In this document: positions 2,424 to 14,764 of the stretch, piece by piece
How the letters are laid out: each line of letters opens with the position of its first letter
How positions within the stretch are numbered: position 1 is the first letter of the stretch
NCBI RefSeq assembly: GCF_000702065.1
Contig: NZ_JNKN01000021.1
Location: 1-37,489 of the forward strand
Direction of reading: 5' to 3'
DNA from: Kandleria vitulina DSM 20405
Lineage (GTDB): Bacteria > Bacillota_I > Bacilli_A > Erysipelotrichales > Coprobacillaceae
DNA length: 37,489 bases
Notes under the pieces: generated by a model
What the model saw: only the letters and a program-made list of their open reading frames with translations
Database searches by the model: none
What the model was told of the DNA's origin: nothing
Program-made: the position numbers and the translations under genes

Positions 2424-2939
2424 ATGATGAAGAAATCATTCATTTTAATAATCTGTTTCCTTCTTCTTTTAGGATGTACAAGTAGTACAAAAAAAGAGAA
2501 GGTAACAGGAATAAAAGAAATACAATATAAGGCATTGAAAAAGAAGATGTCTCAAAATGTAGAATTCATACTCTACATTGGAAGACCGGATTGTGGAGAC
2601 TGCATGGCCTTTAAGCCTATTTTAGAAGAATATCTTGCTAAAAATAAGAACGCAGGATTATATTATCTTAATACGAAAGCCTATCGTGATGCAGCTAAGA
2701 AAAAAGATGCCACAAAAGAAGAAAAGGATTTCTATGATAATCTCTATAAGACCTTTGAAATTGACTGGACACCAACATTAGAAGTCATTTCCAATGGCAA
2801 GATTGTAAAACAGTACAAGTATCTTGATGAAGCCTATTATGAAATTAAAGATCGTGCTAAACAGATTGAAAAACAGAAAGAGTTTGTAAAGAAATTTAAG
2901 ACATTTATGGATGACTATTTTAAGGAGGATGCTTCATGA
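2424..2939 (+). CDS. Thioredoxin-fold lipoprotein (PedC-like)
   Basis: This is a surface-anchored thioredoxin-like protein of 171 aa. Residues 1-18 are a lipoprotein signal: two Lys, a hydrophobic run and the lipobox LLLGC with C18 as the lipidation site. A charged linker leads to a thioredoxin fold with the active-site pair C57-G-D-C60 (GRPDCGDCMAF) and a cis-proline loop, DWTPTLEV. This layout resembles the PedC/BrcD-type bacteriocin accessory proteins, which are disulfide-active, but no bacteriocin gene is nearby, so a general envelope thiol role is the safer reading. Start may be 2424 or the next codon, 2427, behind a strong GGGGGG site. The stop overlaps the next start by 4 bases, so the two are likely cotranslated. 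Confidence 0.8.
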   Translation: MMKKSFILIICFLLLLGCTSSTKKEKVTGIKEIQYKALKKKMSQNVEFILYIGRPDCGDCMAFKPILEEYLAKNKNAGLYYLNTKAYRDAAKKKDATKEEKDFYDNLYKTFEIDWTPTLEVISNGKIVKQYKYLDEAYYEIKDRAKQIEKQKEFVKKFKTFMDDYFKEDAS

Positions 2940-3703
2940 AATGTCCACACTGTCATAATGAAGTAAAAGATGAAGCACGCTATTGTCCACATTGTGGATA
3001 TCATCTACATGAACAGAAACCATCTATTCCAGTATATCGCTATGTGATCGGAGCAGTCGCAGTTGTTGTATTTATCTTTTACACATTGGCTATGACAATG
3101 TTAAATCAGTATTTTATCAAGCCTCAAATCAGCAACACTATTGGGACAACTGTTAAGGGAGAAGGTACTTTCTTAAAAAGCTATACGTCCCTTGATGAAT
3201 TTAATAAAGCCTTCGATAATGCGGACAAGTTTATTTCACCAATTAAAGATTATAATCAATCATTAAGCAAGACCTATGGCCTTATTTTTACGACAAGCTA
3301 TACTTTCCGTTATTATTCTAATGAGAATCTTAAAGTAAAGATTATTAATAAAGCTATCATCAATAAAGACGTAAGTCTTGAGATAGTAAGAGAATATGAT
3401 CGTACAAAGACGTATGATGAAGAGATGCTTACATTATCAAAATCAGGATGTCTTCTTTTTGATGATCTTAAGATGAAAGACTTAAAGCCCTATATCTTAA
3501 AAATGACAACGAAAAAAACATATCAGAGTCTCCTGAATGCATTTGAAGAGAAACGTACATTGTTTGAAAATAAGGAAGGACTTGGTCATTACGGGGTAGG
3601 TGCCTATCTTGAAGGTGGATCTCTTGTCTACTATCCTGATGGACAATCATATCGAAGTGTACTTGAAATCTATAAAAACAAAAACTATCGTTTAGCGCGA
3701 TAG
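2936..3703 (+). CDS. Zinc-ribbon membrane protein, 255 aa
   Basis: The N-terminus is a four-Cys zinc ribbon (CPHC at residues 3-6 and CPHCGYH near 17-23), followed by a short linker and one membrane segment at about residues 34-55 (YVIGAVAVVVFIFYTLAM). The remaining 200 residues are polar and presumably outside the cell. Similar architectures (cytoplasmic ribbon, one helix, external domain) occur in many uncharacterised Firmicutes proteins. No catalytic motif is visible. It overlaps the thioredoxin-like lipoprotein gene by ATGA, suggesting that the two envelope proteins work together. A GGAGG site lies inside the upstream gene. Function unknown. Confidence 0.8.
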   Translation: MKCPHCHNEVKDEARYCPHCGYHLHEQKPSIPVYRYVIGAVAVVVFIFYTLAMTMLNQYFIKPQISNTIGTTVKGEGTFLKSYTSLDEFNKAFDNADKFISPIKDYNQSLSKTYGLIFTTSYTFRYYSNENLKVKIINKAIINKDVSLEIVREYDRTKTYDEEMLTLSKSGCLLFDDLKMKDLKPYILKMTTKKTYQSLLNAFEEKRTLFENKEGLGHYGVGAYLEGGSLVYYPDGQSYRSVLEIYKNKNYRLAR

Positions 3704-3710
3704 TTTTTTT
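3682..3710 (+). terminator. Intrinsic terminator after the zinc-ribbon gene
   Basis: AAACTATCG pairs with CGATAGTTT, followed by a T run. The stop codon TAG is part of the 3' arm. Confidence 0.8.
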
Positions 3711-3733
3711 CAGGTGTCATATATATAGTTATA

Positions 3734-3742
3734 TGATATAAT
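3734..3742 (+). promoter_or_regulatory. Extended -10 promoter for the LytTR regulator gene
   Basis: TGATATAAT is an ideal extended -10 box. Transcription would begin near 3749, giving a leader of about 87 bases. Confidence 0.55.
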
Positions 3743-3745
3743 GAA

Positions 3746-3761
3746 GTAAGACGTGTCTTAC
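3746..3761. promoter_or_regulatory. 16-bp palindrome at the expected transcription start
   Basis: GTAAGAC-GT-GTCTTAC is a perfect 7-bp dyad directly after the -10 box. It sits where a dimeric repressor would block initiation. It does not look like the direct-repeat sites bound by LytTR domains. Confidence 0.5.
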
Positions 3762-3835
3762 AATTAATATAGGATAATAATTTGGGAAATGTATAGATAT
3801 GTTTGAATGAGATGTTTTTGGAAGGTGAATATTTA

Positions 3836-4648
3836 ATGAGAAAGGATATGGTCAACACTGTCATTGAAAAAACACGACAGATAATTGAAAGCTTCTGGAA
3901 CAAGGAAGTGGAACCCTTAGATGATTTTCTTTCTGATGAAGTTATCTATATAGGACCTTTCAGCGGTCAGTTTGTACACGGCAAGAAGGAAACACTGGAT
4001 CTACTGAAAGGAACAAGGGATGAATTAACAAGCTGTGAATTACGTAATGAAGAGTTTTACCCGATTGTTAATGAGAATCATACATGTGTAGTATGTGGAC
4101 GCTACATCAGTATGAGCAATAAGAATAATAAGGAATTGTTCTATCAGGGACAACGTGTAACTGTCATTTGGGTATTGACGAAGGATAAGGAACTTAAAAT
4201 TACGCATATACACTTGTCATCAGGAAACAAATACTATAATGGAAACAAGGAATTCCCACAGGGGCTTAGCAAGCTTGCTTATAATTATCTACAAGATCAG
4301 ATCTATGCAAATAAGAATAATGATCTGATTCATGTAAAGGATGATAAGAAACAGATTCGTCTGATCAGCTTAGGGGATATTGAATATGCGATGGCATTGG
4401 GACATGATACAGTCATCTATATGAACAATGAAAATATCCACGCTAAAATCACATGGAAGAATTTCTTGGAATTGCTTGATAATCGTTTTATTCAGGTACA
4501 CCGCTCTTATGTTATACAAAAGAGCTGTGTAAAACTAATCGGCAAAAAGTTCTTAGAAATGCAGTCGGGTGATAAAATACCTGTTCCAGCTAAGAATATG
4601 AAGAGTGTTTTCTATACTTTGACACAAAAAAAGGAAAAAGGACAATAA
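3836..4648 (+). CDS. NTF2/SnoaL-like sensor fused to LytTR DNA-binding domain
   Basis: This is a 270-aa one-component transcription regulator. Residues about 1-130 look like an NTF2/SnoaL-type cone fold (helical start, then FLSDEVIYIGPFSGQFVHGK and strands ending in ITHIHLSSG), a fold that often forms a pocket for a small ligand. Residues about 165-265 are a LytTR domain, recognisable by the ITWKNFLELLDNRFIQVHRS stretch and the following basic strand. There is no receiver domain and no histidine kinase nearby. The ATG at 3836 is chosen because GGAAGG (3820-3825) precedes it with suitable spacing; an in-frame TTG at 3803 lacks a site. The gene is monocistronic. The ligand and targets are unknown. 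Confidence 0.8.
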   Translation: MRKDMVNTVIEKTRQIIESFWNKEVEPLDDFLSDEVIYIGPFSGQFVHGKKETLDLLKGTRDELTSCELRNEEFYPIVNENHTCVVCGRYISMSNKNNKELFYQGQRVTVIWVLTKDKELKITHIHLSSGNKYYNGNKEFPQGLSKLAYNYLQDQIYANKNNDLIHVKDDKKQIRLISLGDIEYAMALGHDTVIYMNNENIHAKITWKNFLELLDNRFIQVHRSYVIQKSCVKLIGKKFLEMQSGDKIPVPAKNMKSVFYTLTQKKEKGQ

Positions 4649-4663
4649 ACCTTTTCCTTTTTT
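4626..4663 (+). terminator. Intrinsic terminator after the LytTR gene
   Basis: An A-rich arm containing GGAAAAAGG pairs with CCTTTTCC plus the T run, with one bulged A. The stop codon lies in the loop. Confidence 0.75.
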
Positions 4664-4668
4664 CGTTA

Positions 4669-5882: not shown

Positions 5883-6734
5883 ATGGAGGATTATGAAGTT
5901 GTATTAGTATCAGGAATGTCAGGCGCTGGCAAGACATTAGCAATGGCAGGTTTTGAAAACATGGGGTATTATTGCATGGATAATTATCCGGTAGCCCTAT
6001 TAGAAGTATTTGGGGATTTATTGAAATCTTCAAGCTTTGAACCAACAAAGATTGCGATGGCAGTACGCCTTCACGATGCATTGGATGCGATTCGTATTCT
6101 TTCTAATGTCGATCATATAGCTCTAAGTGTCATTGTTTTAGATTGTGATGATGAAACACTCTTGAAGCGCTATAAACAGACAAGACGCTCTCATCCGATG
6201 ATGATTGCCAATATGGCATCAACTTTAACAGAAGCTATTCAGCTTGAAAGACGTCAGTTTGAACGTATGAAATCACAGGCTCATAAGGTCATTGATACGA
6301 CATTATTAAAGCCAAAGGCTCTTCAGGATATTCTAGAATCATCATTCTTTGAAGAACAGCGAGATGTCTTTAGAGTCAGCTTTGTTTCATTTGGCTACAA
6401 GTATGGTGTACCAAAAGATGCCGATTTAATTCTAGATGTACGTTTTCTTCCTAATCCGTTCTATGTGGAAGAACTTCGTCCAAAGACTGGTAATGATGTA
6501 GACGTCTACAACTATGTCATGGAAAAAGAAAGTACAAAGGAATTTGTAAAGAGAACAACAGAATATTATGATTATCTTCTATCGGAATATGAAAAAGAAG
6601 GTAAGATGCAAGTAATTGTAGGAATCGGATGCACTGGCGGACAGCACCGCAGTGTTACACTTACAAATTATTTTGCCAACTATTATAGTCAGTATTATCA
6701 GGTGTATAAATATCACCGCGATGCTGACCATTAA
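5883..6734 (+). CDS. rapZ: RNase adapter / nucleotide-binding protein RapZ (YvcJ)
   Basis: RapZ/YvcJ is a P-loop protein of 283 aa, the usual length. The Walker A motif GMSGAGKT is at residues 11-18, and the C-terminal domain ends with the family signature GCTGGQHRSV. In E. coli RapZ steers a small RNA that controls glucosamine-6-phosphate synthase; in Bacillus YvcJ hydrolyses nucleotides and affects competence. The role here is inferred. The start has GGAGGA 7-8 bases upstream. whiA begins 14 bases after its stop, the conserved partner, but the usual middle gene yvcK is missing. Confidence 0.95.
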   Translation: MEDYEVVLVSGMSGAGKTLAMAGFENMGYYCMDNYPVALLEVFGDLLKSSSFEPTKIAMAVRLHDALDAIRILSNVDHIALSVIVLDCDDETLLKRYKQTRRSHPMMIANMASTLTEAIQLERRQFERMKSQAHKVIDTTLLKPKALQDILESSFFEEQRDVFRVSFVSFGYKYGVPKDADLILDVRFLPNPFYVEELRPKTGNDVDVYNYVMEKESTKEFVKRTTEYYDYLLSEYEKEGKMQVIVGIGCTGGQHRSVTLTNYFANYYSQYYQVYKYHRDADH

Positions 6735-6748
6735 GGAGTGAACACAGC

Positions 6749-7690
6749 ATGCTTTCTTTTGCGAGAAAGGTAAAAGAAGAAATTGTATTTAATGATTTTG
6801 ATGTCGATTGTTCAAAAGCTTTGCTTTGTGCCTTGATCAAGGTTACAGGAACATTGCACTTAGGCAATGGCATGTCTTTAACAATACGTACAGAAAATGC
6901 CAAGATTGCCTCTAAGGCACATAAGCTTATCAAGGAAATCTATCATCCACAATTGGAATTTAGAGTTTCTAAGAAGATGAAACTTAACAAGAACAACGTC
7001 TATATCTTAAGAGTCTCTAAGGCGCGTGTGATTCTTGATGATCTTCATCTTATGGATGGACTAGGTTTTCCTATTGTCCCATCACAAGAAATTCTTCATT
7101 CATCAGATACCAAAAGAGCCTATCTTGCAGGAGTCTTTCTAGCAAGTGGGTCAGTAAACAATCCGGATACATCAAATTATCATCTTGAAATGAATGTCAA
7201 TGATCAGCAGCATGCTGATTTTATTGCCAAACTCATGAATGAATATGAACTGAATGCCAAAGTCATTCAGCGTCGAAAAAAATATGTAATCTATCTTAAA
7301 TCAGCAGAGAAGATTGGTGACTTTCTTCGTGCCATTGGGGCAAGCTCTTCAGTCATGGAATTTGAAATGACAAGAATTGATCGATCAATGGCCAATACTG
7401 TCAACAGATGGAACAACTGCGATATTGCTAATGAGATGAAAGTCATGTCAGCAGCAGAAAAGCAGATTGAAGATATCGCTTATGTCATTGATAAGGCAGG
7501 AATAGAAATACTAGATGAAAAGACTGCTATCGTTGCTAATATTCGTCTAGAAAATCCGGAACTGTCTTTAAATGAATTGGCAGATGTCTACTTTGAAAAA
7601 ACAGGAAAGACTATTTCTAAGTCTGGGCTACATCATCGATTCAGAAAGATCAAGGATGAAGCCAATAAACTCAAGCATATGGAGGAGTGA
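6749..7690 (+). CDS. whiA: DNA-binding protein WhiA
   Basis: WhiA is a conserved Gram-positive protein of 313 aa linked to cell division and, in actinobacteria, sporulation. The N-terminal part (MLSFARKVKEEI through about residue 220) is the degenerate LAGLIDADG homing-endonuclease-like domain without nuclease residues (AYLAGVFLASGSVNNP is its central motif). The C-terminus holds a helix-turn-helix, LSLNELADVYFEKTGKTISK followed by SGLHHRFRKI. It follows rapZ closely with a GGAG site. It ends just before a small Xre regulator whose ribosome site lies over the whiA stop codon, so translation may be coupled. Confidence 0.95.
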   Translation: MLSFARKVKEEIVFNDFDVDCSKALLCALIKVTGTLHLGNGMSLTIRTENAKIASKAHKLIKEIYHPQLEFRVSKKMKLNKNNVYILRVSKARVILDDLHLMDGLGFPIVPSQEILHSSDTKRAYLAGVFLASGSVNNPDTSNYHLEMNVNDQQHADFIAKLMNEYELNAKVIQRRKKYVIYLKSAEKIGDFLRAIGASSSVMEFEMTRIDRSMANTVNRWNNCDIANEMKVMSAAEKQIEDIAYVIDKAGIEILDEKTAIVANIRLENPELSLNELADVYFEKTGKTISKSGLHHRFRKIKDEANKLKHMEE

Positions 7691-7694
7691 TTTT

Positions 7695-7901
7695 TTGACA
7701 ACAATCGAAAAGCGATTTGGTATGCGTATTCGTGAACTGCGCATGCTGCAGGAAATTTCTCAAGAAGAGCTGGCGTGGAGATGTCAGCTTTCTAAAAATT
7801 ATGTCTCTGATGTAGAAAGAGGACGTAGAAATGTCTCATTAAAAGCTATTGAAAAATTTGCAAAAGGTCTCGATGTTAAACTGGAAGACCTTTTTCGATA
7901 A
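7695..7901 (+). CDS. Xre-family helix-turn-helix regulator, 68 aa
   Basis: This small Cro/C1-type DNA-binding protein is almost only the helix-turn-helix: IRELRMLQEISQEELAWRC, SKNYVSDVERGRRNVSL and the closing helix IEKFAKGLDVKLEDLF. The start is a TTG at 7695, 9 bases after GGAGG (7681-7685); a longer frame exists upstream but overlaps whiA and has no ribosome site. No sensor domain is present. Its place between whiA and wall-synthesis genes suggests local regulation, but its targets are unknown. Confidence 0.8.
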   Translation: MTTIEKRFGMRIRELRMLQEISQEELAWRCQLSKNYVSDVERGRRNVSLKAIEKFAKGLDVKLEDLFR

Positions 7902-7912
7902 AAGGAGATTCT

Positions 7913-8146
7913 ATGGATATACTTGTTATATTGTTAATCGTATTAATTGTCTTGCTGCTATTATCATCAGTGATTTCATTTATTATTTATTTATGGCCAT
8001 TGCTTTTGATTGCAGCTATCGTCTACGCTATCGTGAATGCTTTTAAAAAGCCACATGAAGAAGAAGTAGAGATACATGAAGAAAATCCAGATATCATCGA
8101 TGTAGACTACACAGTCGTCGATGAAGAAGAAAAAAAGGAGCAATAA
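7913..8146 (+). CDS. Small membrane protein with acidic tail, 77 aa
   Basis: Residues about 1-45 contain two closely spaced hydrophobic helices (ILVILLIVLIVLLLL and WPLLLIAAIVYAIVNAF), followed by a strongly acidic cytoplasmic-type tail with many Glu and Asp. No known domain is recognised. AAAGGAG precedes the ATG. It lies 11 bases after the regulator gene and one base before the zinc-ribbon gene, clearly in the same transcription unit. A 65-aa frame overlapping it in another phase is a shadow. Confidence 0.7.
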   Translation: MDILVILLIVLIVLLLLSSVISFIIYLWPLLLIAAIVYAIVNAFKKPHEEEVEIHEENPDIIDVDYTVVDEEEKKEQ

Positions 8147-8147
8147 G

Positions 8148-8579
8148 ATGATCTGTTCACATTGTGGAGCTGAAAATCGCGATGATGCCTTATTCTGCAG
8201 TCAGTGCGGTCAGCCAATTTCAAGAGTCTGTCCTAACTGTCATCGTGAAGTATCAAAAGATGCATCATTTTGTCAGTATTGTGGATATGCATTAAAACAA
8301 GATAACGGTGCAGTGTGCCCAAAGTGTCAGCATGTCAATAAGCCAGGAGTTGGCTATTGTGTGCAGTGCGGTACAAAATTAAATCAGTCTGCTACTGAAT
8401 ATAGAATGGAATATATAGAAAAAAACATAGAAGCAGTGGATTCAAAGATTCACTGGAGCAAAGTGCTAAGAATTTTTCTTGTCTTTGTTCTTGTAACAGT
8501 TTTCTGCTACATAATTCTAAAATCAACTCATGGCGTACAGGTCACTGACATGCCTAAGAACGCTATGGTGGTAAAATAA
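8148..8579 (+). CDS. Multi-zinc-ribbon membrane protein, 143 aa
   Basis: Several CxxC pairs form about three zinc-ribbon units in the first 80 residues (CSHCG/CSQCG, CPNCH/CQYCG, CPKCQ/CVQCG), of the double-zinc-ribbon type. A linker leads to one C-terminal membrane helix (VLRIFLVFVLVTVFCYIIL) and a short tail, so the ribbons face the cytoplasm. Such proteins are common and mostly uncharacterised. The ATG at 8148 is chosen because AAGGAG precedes it; the frame extends 9 codons further up without a start site. It is the second zinc-ribbon membrane protein in this window, but the layout differs from the one at 2936. Confidence 0.78.
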   Translation: MICSHCGAENRDDALFCSQCGQPISRVCPNCHREVSKDASFCQYCGYALKQDNGAVCPKCQHVNKPGVGYCVQCGTKLNQSATEYRMEYIEKNIEAVDSKIHWSKVLRIFLVFVLVTVFCYIILKSTHGVQVTDMPKNAMVVK

Positions 8580-8590
8580 GAGAGGTTAAT

Positions 8591-9934
8591 ATGCTAGTAA
8601 GAGAGATACTTGAAGCAACAAAAGGAACCCTTCTTTCAGGTCGTGAGGACGATATAATCGAAGGGTTTACACAAGATTCAAGACAAGCAAAAGAAGGAAT
8701 GATGTACATTCCTTTAAAAGGAGAAAATCATGATGGACATGATTTTATCGCTTCTGCCTTCGATAATGGCGCTAGCGCCATTATCACCGAAAAAGAAGTG
8801 AACTATCCTGACAAGAATGTCATTCTTGTCAAAGATACATTAAAAGCTCTAGGAGATATGGCTCGCTATGTGCGTATTCATTCTCATGCGATTGTTGTGG
8901 GGATTACGGGCAGTGTTGGTAAGACAAGCACTAAGGATATGATCTACAGTGTTGTAAGTGAACATTTCAAGTGCTTGAAGACGCTTGGTAATTATAACAA
9001 CCATATCGGTTTACCGTTGACTATTCTTCGCTATAAGGATGAAGAAGCAATGGTGATCGAAATGGGAATGAACCATCTTGGAGAAATTGATTATCTGACA
9101 AATATTGCCTTGCCTGATGTGGCAGCTATTACCAATGTCGGGACAGCGCACATCGGTGAAGTGGGATCTAGAGAAAATATTCTTAAGGCCAAGATGGAAA
9201 TTACTCATGGTCTAAAGAAAGATGGTGTTCTAGTCATCAACCATGATAACGATATGCTTTCTACTGTAAAAGAAGATGGCTTCACATTAAAAGGTATCGG
9301 TATTGATGATCAAGCAGATCTTATGGCACGAGATGTCATCTTAAATGAAGATTCTTCTTCATTTAAGATTGAAGTAGAAAATAAGTTTTACGATGTTCAT
9401 GTACCAGTTGCTGGAAAACACTTTGTCTACAATGCGTTAGTGGCCATTCAGGTAGGATTGTCGCTAGGTGAAAGCATTGAAGAATGTATTCATGGTGTAG
9501 AACATTTTGAATTAACGAAGAAGAGAGCTGATCTTATTGAAGTAAAGAATGGCATGAAAGTCTTTGATGGGACATACAATGCCAACTTGGATTCAATGAT
9601 TGCTTCTATTGATGTCCTTTCTGCCTACAAGGAAAGAAAGGTTGCAATTTTAGGTGATATGCTTGAACTTGGTGAGTATGAAGAAGAACTTCATAGAGAA
9701 GTTGGAAAGCATCTTGTCGAAAAGAATATTGATTTAACACTTGCGGTAGGAGAAGCTTCGGAGTATATTATCGATGAAGTCAAGAAAGCTGGACGTAATG
9801 GCTATCATTTTAAAAACAAAGAAGAAATGATTAAGGCTATGCATGAATTACTTAATGAAAATGATGTTATTCTAGTAAAAGCGTCCAATGGTATGGGTTT
9901 AAAAGAAGTCGTAGATGATTTAAAAGGAGAATAA
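8591..9934 (+). CDS. murF: UDP-MurNAc-tripeptide:D-Ala-D-Ala ligase MurF
   Basis: MurF adds D-Ala-D-Ala to UDP-MurNAc-tripeptide, the last cytoplasmic step of peptidoglycan precursor synthesis. It has 447 aa, typical length. The N-terminal substrate domain contains FTQDSRQAKEGMMYIPLKG; the ATP loop is GITGSVGKTSTKD near residues 104-116; the central motifs TLGNYNNHIGLPLT and EMGMNHLGEID follow, then the C-terminal domain with FDGTYNANLDSM. It is 11 bases downstream of the zinc-ribbon gene and 3 bases before ddl, which makes its dipeptide substrate. Confidence 0.96.
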   Translation: MLVREILEATKGTLLSGREDDIIEGFTQDSRQAKEGMMYIPLKGENHDGHDFIASAFDNGASAIITEKEVNYPDKNVILVKDTLKALGDMARYVRIHSHAIVVGITGSVGKTSTKDMIYSVVSEHFKCLKTLGNYNNHIGLPLTILRYKDEEAMVIEMGMNHLGEIDYLTNIALPDVAAITNVGTAHIGEVGSRENILKAKMEITHGLKKDGVLVINHDNDMLSTVKEDGFTLKGIGIDDQADLMARDVILNEDSSSFKIEVENKFYDVHVPVAGKHFVYNALVAIQVGLSLGESIEECIHGVEHFELTKKRADLIEVKNGMKVFDGTYNANLDSMIASIDVLSAYKERKVAILGDMLELGEYEEELHREVGKHLVEKNIDLTLAVGEASEYIIDEVKKAGRNGYHFKNKEEMIKAMHELLNENDVILVKASNGMGLKEVVDDLKGE

Positions 9935-9937
9935 TTT

Positions 9938-10972
9938 ATGAAATTACTTTTAGTCTGTGGTGGACAATCAACAGAACATAGTGTATCGAGAATGTCATGT
10001 ACTAATATTAGAAAGAAGATTGATGATACACGCTACGAGGTAACTGTATTAGGTATCGATCAGGAAGGTACTTGGTATCATCTTGATGATGAAGTTAAAG
10101 ATTATGCAAGTGATAATTGGCTTAATAATGCAAAGGAAGTAAAAGAAATCTTCGATTTCTTACGTTCTTTTGATGTTATTTTCCCTGTTCTTCACGGAAT
10201 GTATGGAGAAGATGGAACTATCCAGGGATTATTTGAAATGGCTGGTGTGCCATATGTGGGATGCAGAGTCAATGATTCTGCCAATGCGATGGATAAGGTT
10301 ATCACTAAGAAGTTAATCGATGCAGCAGGTATTAAACAGGTTCCTTCTCTTTATGTCAAGAAACGTTTTGATGATGAATTTGTCATTGTTAATGATGATA
10401 CAACTGAAGAAAAAGATATCGTCAAGAAAGTTATGGATACATTCGGTGTCCCATGCTTTATCAAGGCTAGCCGTTCAGGTTCTTCAGTGGGATGCTATAA
10501 GGTCAACAAGGAAGAAGATATTCTTCCTAAGCTTAAAGAAGCAGGTCAGTATGACCGTAAGATTCTTATTGAAAAGAGCATCAATGCGACTGAATTGGAA
10601 TGTGCAGTATTAGGTAATGATGATATTATTTCATCACGTGTAGGTCAGATTCTTCCACATGGGGAATTCTATACATTTGAATCTAAGTATGAAGATGAAG
10701 AATCAGCGACTTGCATTCCAGCAAGAGTGGATCAGTCTATCCAGGATACTATCAGAAAAGAAGCAGTACGTGCATTTAAGGCTATCGATGGTCATGGATT
10801 AGCACGTTGTGACTTCTTCTTAGATAAAGATACAGGAGATCTTTACCTTAATGAGTTAAATACATTGCCAGGATTTACAAATATTTCAATGTATCCTCAG
10901 CTAATGGAAGATTTCGGTATTTCACAGGAAGAACTCATCAACCGTCTTATCGCGCTCGCATTAGAAAGATAA
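9938..10972 (+). CDS. ddl: D-alanine--D-alanine ligase
   Basis: Ddl is an ATP-grasp ligase of 344 aa joining two D-alanines. The N-terminus carries GGQSTEHSVSRMSC; the core includes HGMYGEDGTIQGLFEM, KASRSGSSVGC and the C-terminal DFFLDKDTGDLYLNELNTLPG with the metal ligands. In the omega loop FESKYEDE keeps the Lys-Tyr pair corresponding to K215-Y216 of E. coli DdlB. Enzymes that make D-Ala-D-lactate tend to have Phe there, so normal D-Ala-D-Ala is predicted. It is cotranscribed with murF and ends at a strong terminator. Confidence 0.95.
   Translation: MKLLLVCGGQSTEHSVSRMSCTNIRKKIDDTRYEVTVLGIDQEGTWYHLDDEVKDYASDNWLNNAKEVKEIFDFLRSFDVIFPVLHGMYGEDGTIQGLFEMAGVPYVGCRVNDSANAMDKVITKKLIDAAGIKQVPSLYVKKRFDDEFVIVNDDTTEEKDIVKKVMDTFGVPCFIKASRSGSSVGCYKVNKEEDILPKLKEAGQYDRKILIEKSINATELECAVLGNDDIISSRVGQILPHGEFYTFESKYEDEESATCIPARVDQSIQDTIRKEAVRAFKAIDGHGLARCDFFLDKDTGDLYLNELNTLPGFTNISMYPQLMEDFGISQEELINRLIALALER

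Positions 10973-13216: not shown

Positions 13217-14764
<1,548 letters not shown>

Follow-up and report, generated by a model that had tools for sequence, protein, structure and literature searches.

What kind of signal reaches the LytTR DNA-binding domain encoded at 3836–4648 of the window (the whole stretch of 37,489 nucleotides that was analysed)? An earlier note on this DNA, made from the sequence alone, had claimed that a soluble, pocket-forming NTF2/SnoaL-like fold is joined here to LytTR in place of the receiver or membrane domain that LytTR normally follows, and had proposed a direct small-molecule sensor working without a partner kinase.

Domain composition and predicted fold

The gene is a complete open reading frame on the forward strand, with the ATG at 3836 and the stop codon at 4646–4648 (270 amino acids); a ribosome-binding-like GGAAGGTG was noticed by eye 5′ of the start codon, at 3820–3827. 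The Pfam search clearly showed both domains above their cut-offs: SnoaL_3 (PF13474) at residues 14–128 (E 2.1e-6, 28.6 bits vs. 22) and LytTR (PF04397) at residues 173–258, i.e., 4352–4609 (E 1.4e-13, 51.3 bits vs. 22.6). Combined with the structural data described below, this divides the protein into an NTF2-like domain (residues 1–129, 3836–4222), a low-confidence linker bearing an F-P motif at 140–141 (residues 130–161, 4223–4318; delimited by model confidence and conservation), and the LytTR domain (residues ~164–266, 4325–4633). Neither a receiver (Response_reg) nor a PAS domain was matched in Pfam at E up to 1, an NCBIfam search with the regulator gave no match, and the protein is soluble, having no membrane segment. 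For this protein, the replacement of a receiver or membrane domain by a soluble fold was thus borne out.

An AlphaFold2 model built from a 10-row alignment of family members had a mean pLDDT of 81 and a pTM of 0.50; pLDDT was mostly 92–96 in LytTR, 60–95 per 10-residue block in the N-terminal domain, and below 50 in the linker (130–161). The predicted secondary structure of the N-terminal part (helices 3–21 and 26–29, strands 32–39 and 46–48, helix 50–61, strands 67–79, 83–96, 100–114 and 120–129) has the NTF2-like order. With this model, Foldseek retrieved the LytTR domain of AgrA (4g4k, target TM-score 0.82) and the CaMKII hub (5ig4, 0.74–0.77), and VIA-align 2 matched many NTF2-like chains at Z 15–16 over model residues 1–135, ketosteroid isomerase being among the fold matches. 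Profile comparison with solved structures likewise gave the CaMKII hub 5ig4 for the N-terminal domain (E 2.2e-5) and AgrA, ComE and 3d6w for the LytTR part; the profiles performed better than a single-protein phmmer search with the regulator against the PDB, which found no match. By its predicted structure, the N-terminal part belongs to the NTF2-like folds. The domain search and structure prediction suggested in the earlier note thus agree with the domain fusion that it described, and the fold, on which that note had made its reading depend, came out as NTF2-like by AlphaFold2, Foldseek, VIA-align 2 and the structure profiles alike.

In the regulator's own genome LytTR was matched six times, and SnoaL_3 accompanies only this copy, which is also the sole SnoaL_3 genome-wide. 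Within the family, the SnoaL_3 score of the closest ortholog (P0002) was 18.7, under the Pfam cut-off of 22, and just 5 of the 10 members of alignment A1 were matched at E up to 0.01. The pairing of SnoaL with LytTR is not a matter of chance, since full-length relatives were found by both profile and single-sequence searches and two orthologs lie in a conserved gene order.

Gene neighbourhood and upstream DNA

Downstream, the regulator is followed by an aminotransferase gene (Pfam Aminotran_1_2) and, past it, by what we take from the sequence to be rapZ and whiA; upstream lie presumably gpmI, similarly named by reading the sequence, and a thioredoxin-like lipoprotein gene whose Pfam matches were weak and under the cut-off. 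Immediately upstream, on the same strand, there is a zinc-ribbon ORF (2936–3703) with one membrane segment recognised by eye. The orthologs in genomes G009 (47% identity) and G067 (44%) likewise have the thioredoxin-like gene on one side and the aminotransferase gene on the other, and there the zinc-ribbon gene is absent, so that the lipoprotein gene adjoins the regulator. More distant members (in G027, G046, G033, G050, G265 and G044) are located elsewhere, and their neighbourhood genes gave no match besides ABC-type ones. No kinase gene adjoins the regulator in the window, nor is a kinase or membrane partner kept at the two orthologous loci, in line with the proposed independence from a partner kinase. 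Elsewhere in the window, at 13749–14764, a frameshift interrupts what reads as ilvC (ketol-acid reductoisomerase) in an otherwise intact-looking ilv/leu run; the lesion may be genuine or a fault of the assembly.

The position of the zinc-ribbon ORF, with its membrane segment, immediately upstream on the same strand might suggest that the regulator is one half of a LytTR regulatory system (LRS), inhibited by this membrane protein. When judged against the excerpted description of such systems (PMC6193735), the locus differs in having no conserved neighbouring membrane inhibitor: the zinc-ribbon gene is missing at both orthologous loci. Moreover, the two genes have a hairpin near 3680–3708 and a distinct promoter-like site between them, and LRS-type direct repeats were not found in 11 intergenic stretches. 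We therefore regard an LRS as very improbable here.

The regulator gene probably has its own promoter. The candidate is a sigma-70 site, GTGTCA-17-TATAAT with TG before the −10, at 3714–3742 on the forward strand, identified by consensus match only (10 of 12 positions); promoter-like sites in the upstream region numbered 18 vs. 15.6 in shuffled sequences, i.e., no excess. Directly after the −10, at 3746–3761, there is a perfect 16-bp palindrome (GTAAGAC and GTCTTAC around a central GT, GTAAGACGTGTCTTAC), which may be an operator or a 5′ RNA hairpin and is a candidate target site of the regulator. When the intergenic stretch was shuffled 500 times, an equally GC-rich repeat arose in 12 cases, and by eye no such palindrome was seen upstream of the two orthologs. 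The genome has no second exact copy of the palindrome at 3746–3761, which is no evident regulon site because, with up to two mismatches, 11 sites were found vs. 7 for the reversed control. At the other end of the gene, a sequence scan revealed an inverted repeat overlapping the stop codon and followed by a T run (4624–4666), a candidate terminator.

LytTR-type direct repeats, which the earlier note had suggested looking for upstream of candidate targets, did not rise above chance in the immediate neighbourhood. No pair of LytTR boxes, (TA)(AC)(CA)GTTN(AG)(TG), spaced 19–24 bp apart was present on either strand of the window and four related loci. Direct repeats of 9 bp with 10–13-bp spacers were not above shuffles in the 11 intergenic stretches (a weak test), nor were direct repeats just upstream of the regulator's own −35.

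Use of the N-terminal module across the order

To follow the N-terminal domain in other genomes, we used a profile of 12 rows (10 LytTR fusions and 2 kinase fusions, GGDEF classes being absent from the training set), a composition that biases the search towards LytTR and kinase fusions; at the threshold applied (E up to 1e-6), remoter stand-alone SnoaL proteins could escape. Across the phylum, 11 of 392 genomes were positive, every one belonging to the regulator's own order, and of the 294 genomes searched within the order, 32 contained the module, at a total of 42 places. Inspection of their open frames and motifs, together with Pfam, assigned every one of the 42 to signalling fusions or to the broken remains of such. 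The output was LytTR at 16 places, comprising 14 intact proteins, spread over 12 genomes and all matching LytTR in Pfam, and two interrupted copies, one with a single in-frame stop (G164) and one broken (G003). GGDEF outputs were found at 12 places (3 checked with Pfam, 9 assigned by the GGDEF motif alone; one split), PAS-GGDEF at 6, a hybrid histidine kinase at 6 (five plus one truncated copy, G174, which was not scanned), and GGDEF-EAL at 2. The broken gene in G003 (locus L109) contains stops and has lost its middle part, a case of regulator decay in one genome.

Residue conservation was evaluated for the 38 intact modules: G40 is invariant (38/38), followed by S128 (34/37), H126 (33/37), H124 (29/36), R107 (29/38, absent from the two closest orthologs) and T109 (28/38). 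The linker F-P pair (F in 22/36, P in 24/36) is common to the kinase and GGDEF fusions. On a tree of the 38 modules, seven output changes were required in all (the minimum possible being four), the 14 LytTR rows needing two; the tree still leaves room for a single origin of the LytTR fusion.

Since in the relatives this domain always precedes an intact or broken signalling output, it can be considered a portable input module, and its fold is probably a plug-in chemical sensor. The direct sensor role claimed in the earlier note was supported indirectly, by relatives that carry the module ahead of GGDEF, GGDEF-EAL, PAS-GGDEF and hybrid-kinase outputs, and weakened by the poor retention of the ligand residues of the CaMKII hub. 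His395/Arg433/Arg453/Arg469 of the hub correspond to T53/R89/V110/L127 in the regulator, so that one of the four is kept, by a mapping that we take to be approximate, as the human numbers were counted along a stretch of the hub; the same positions vary among relatives. In the excerpt of PMC12148480, these four residues are the ligand residues of the CaMKII-alpha hub.

The fold family includes enzymes, such as the ketosteroid isomerase among the fold matches, and the polar residues H124, H126 and R107 are conserved, so one could imagine a working or recently working SnoaL/ketosteroid-isomerase-type enzyme whose turnover is coupled to regulation. However, no catalytic set of any named enzyme was identified, the last strand contains the conserved His and Ser, an arrangement also seen in the CaMKII hub (HFHxS), which is no enzyme, and none of the 42 places showed anything but a signalling fusion, intact or broken, which makes an enzymatic role highly unlikely.

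In one relative, G046, the regulator gene may be switched by DNA inversion. At its locus L057, a tyrosine recombinase gene (6005–6886; phage integrase family, confirmed by Pfam) is followed by a non-coding segment of 381 bp, flanked on either side by one arm of a perfect 27-bp inverted repeat (6891–6917 and 7299–7325), then by the SnoaL-LytTR gene (7348–8157) and, just downstream, by a gene for an NTF2-like-GGDEF-EAL protein with the same input module (8394–10166). Within G046 the repeat occurs exactly only as this pair; near copies were found singly in G055. Inversion could turn the regulator on, since the better-scoring promoter-like site of the segment faces away from the gene and the one on the forward strand is followed by a terminator-like hairpin. 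The segment is thus a candidate invertible promoter and phase switch; the switch remains a prediction, because the promoter-like sites (2 vs. 4.4 in shuffles) do not exceed chance. In Clostridioides difficile, inversion is known upstream of c-di-GMP phosphodiesterase genes (excerpt of PMC9286219). The SipW/TasA-like identity given by eye to surface-type ORFs of G046 was not supported by Pfam.

It is quite possible, though we would not count on it, that this order-wide NTF2-like family, with its HxHxS motif and F-P linker, serves generally as an input module that is connected, depending on the protein, to transcription (LytTR), to c-di-GMP synthesis and breakdown (GGDEF, GGDEF-EAL) and to phosphorelay (hybrid kinase), with one ligand class for all and with the transcription branch also switched by DNA inversion in some species.

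Proposed mode of action and known systems

The reading that we find fairly probable is that the regulator is a cytoplasmic one-component transcription regulator, whose NTF2-like input domain binds a small molecule or metabolite and passes the signal to LytTR. The ligand would enter the cone-shaped pocket of the NTF2-like domain, its binding would rearrange the dimer or move the linker, and the grip of LytTR on promoter DNA would change as a result; that the protein binds a ligand, forms a dimer, relays the signal allosterically via the F-P linker and binds DNA is in each case inferred. To our knowledge, no ligand has been identified for any protein carrying this N-terminal module. If the proposal is correct, a cytoplasmic soluble sensor class is added to the LytTR regulators, the ligand of the module could be found via any of several outputs, the GGDEF enzymes offering an easy read-out, and transcription would be linked with c-di-GMP control in a poorly studied bacterial order.

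The role of an NTF2-like domain can also be oligomerisation alone, as in the CaMKII hub. This hub (5ig4), the closest solved sequence relative of the N-terminal domain and similar to it in fold, differs from the regulator in being the large-ring oligomeriser of a kinase. The domain could accordingly be a constitutive dimerisation or protein-interaction domain that binds no small molecule, as in the hub or in ECF41/ECF56 sigma factors with their SnoaL-like tail, the activity being set by expression level or a protein partner. The non-conserved pocket positions known from CaMKII and the possible control of regulator expression by inversion in G046 would fit this, as would the sigma factors, where, according to the excerpt of PMC7730460, SnoaL_2 acts by contacting the sigma core, an anti-sigma partner being described for one of them. 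Against it, the module also precedes outputs that need no extra dimeriser, e.g., hybrid kinases with their own HisKA, and the CaMKII hub itself binds ligands (excerpt of PMC12148480). We consider a pure dimerisation or protein-interaction role rather unlikely and retain the ligand-sensing regulator as the preferred reading. The ECF41/ECF56 factors resemble it in the fusion of an NTF2-like domain to a transcription regulator, but their extension is C-terminal and of the SnoaL_2 type, acts on the sigma core, and is described in that excerpt without LytTR (PMC7730460).

Our literature search did not find the SnoaL_3/NTF2-LytTR combination, co-mentions of LytTR and NTF2 occurring in unrelated passages only; it may well be present in the Pfam/InterPro architecture lists. 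The regulator differs from two-component response regulators in lacking the N-terminal receiver domain. The heme sensor domain of RcoM is of the PAS type. According to the excerpt of PMC11347149, RcoM1 is a single-component CO/heme-sensor regulator with a C-terminal LytTR, RcoM uses three TTCNNGCA repeats, and single-domain LytTR proteins also exist; hence there are published exceptions to the general rule in the earlier note that a receiver or membrane domain precedes LytTR. Like RcoM1, the regulator joins a soluble sensory domain straight to LytTR in one component (PMC11347149); unlike the heme domain of RcoM, its sensor is NTF2-like (SnoaL_3), and an N-terminal heme-binding PAS sensor is absent, PAS being unmatched at E up to 1. 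CoxC (MHYT-LytTR) is also a one-component LytTR regulator and senses a small molecule, CO, but through a transmembrane sensor (excerpt of PMC11347149). From the other side, SO4407 of Shewanella oneidensis, an active diguanylate cyclase, likewise carries SnoaL_3 at the N-terminus of a signalling protein, its output being GGDEF instead of a DNA-binding domain (excerpt of PMC7666153). Soluble one-component LytTR regulators (RcoM) and a SnoaL_3-GGDEF protein (SO4407) are thus already in print, as far as these excerpts go, and therefore the regulator adds a variant to a known kind.
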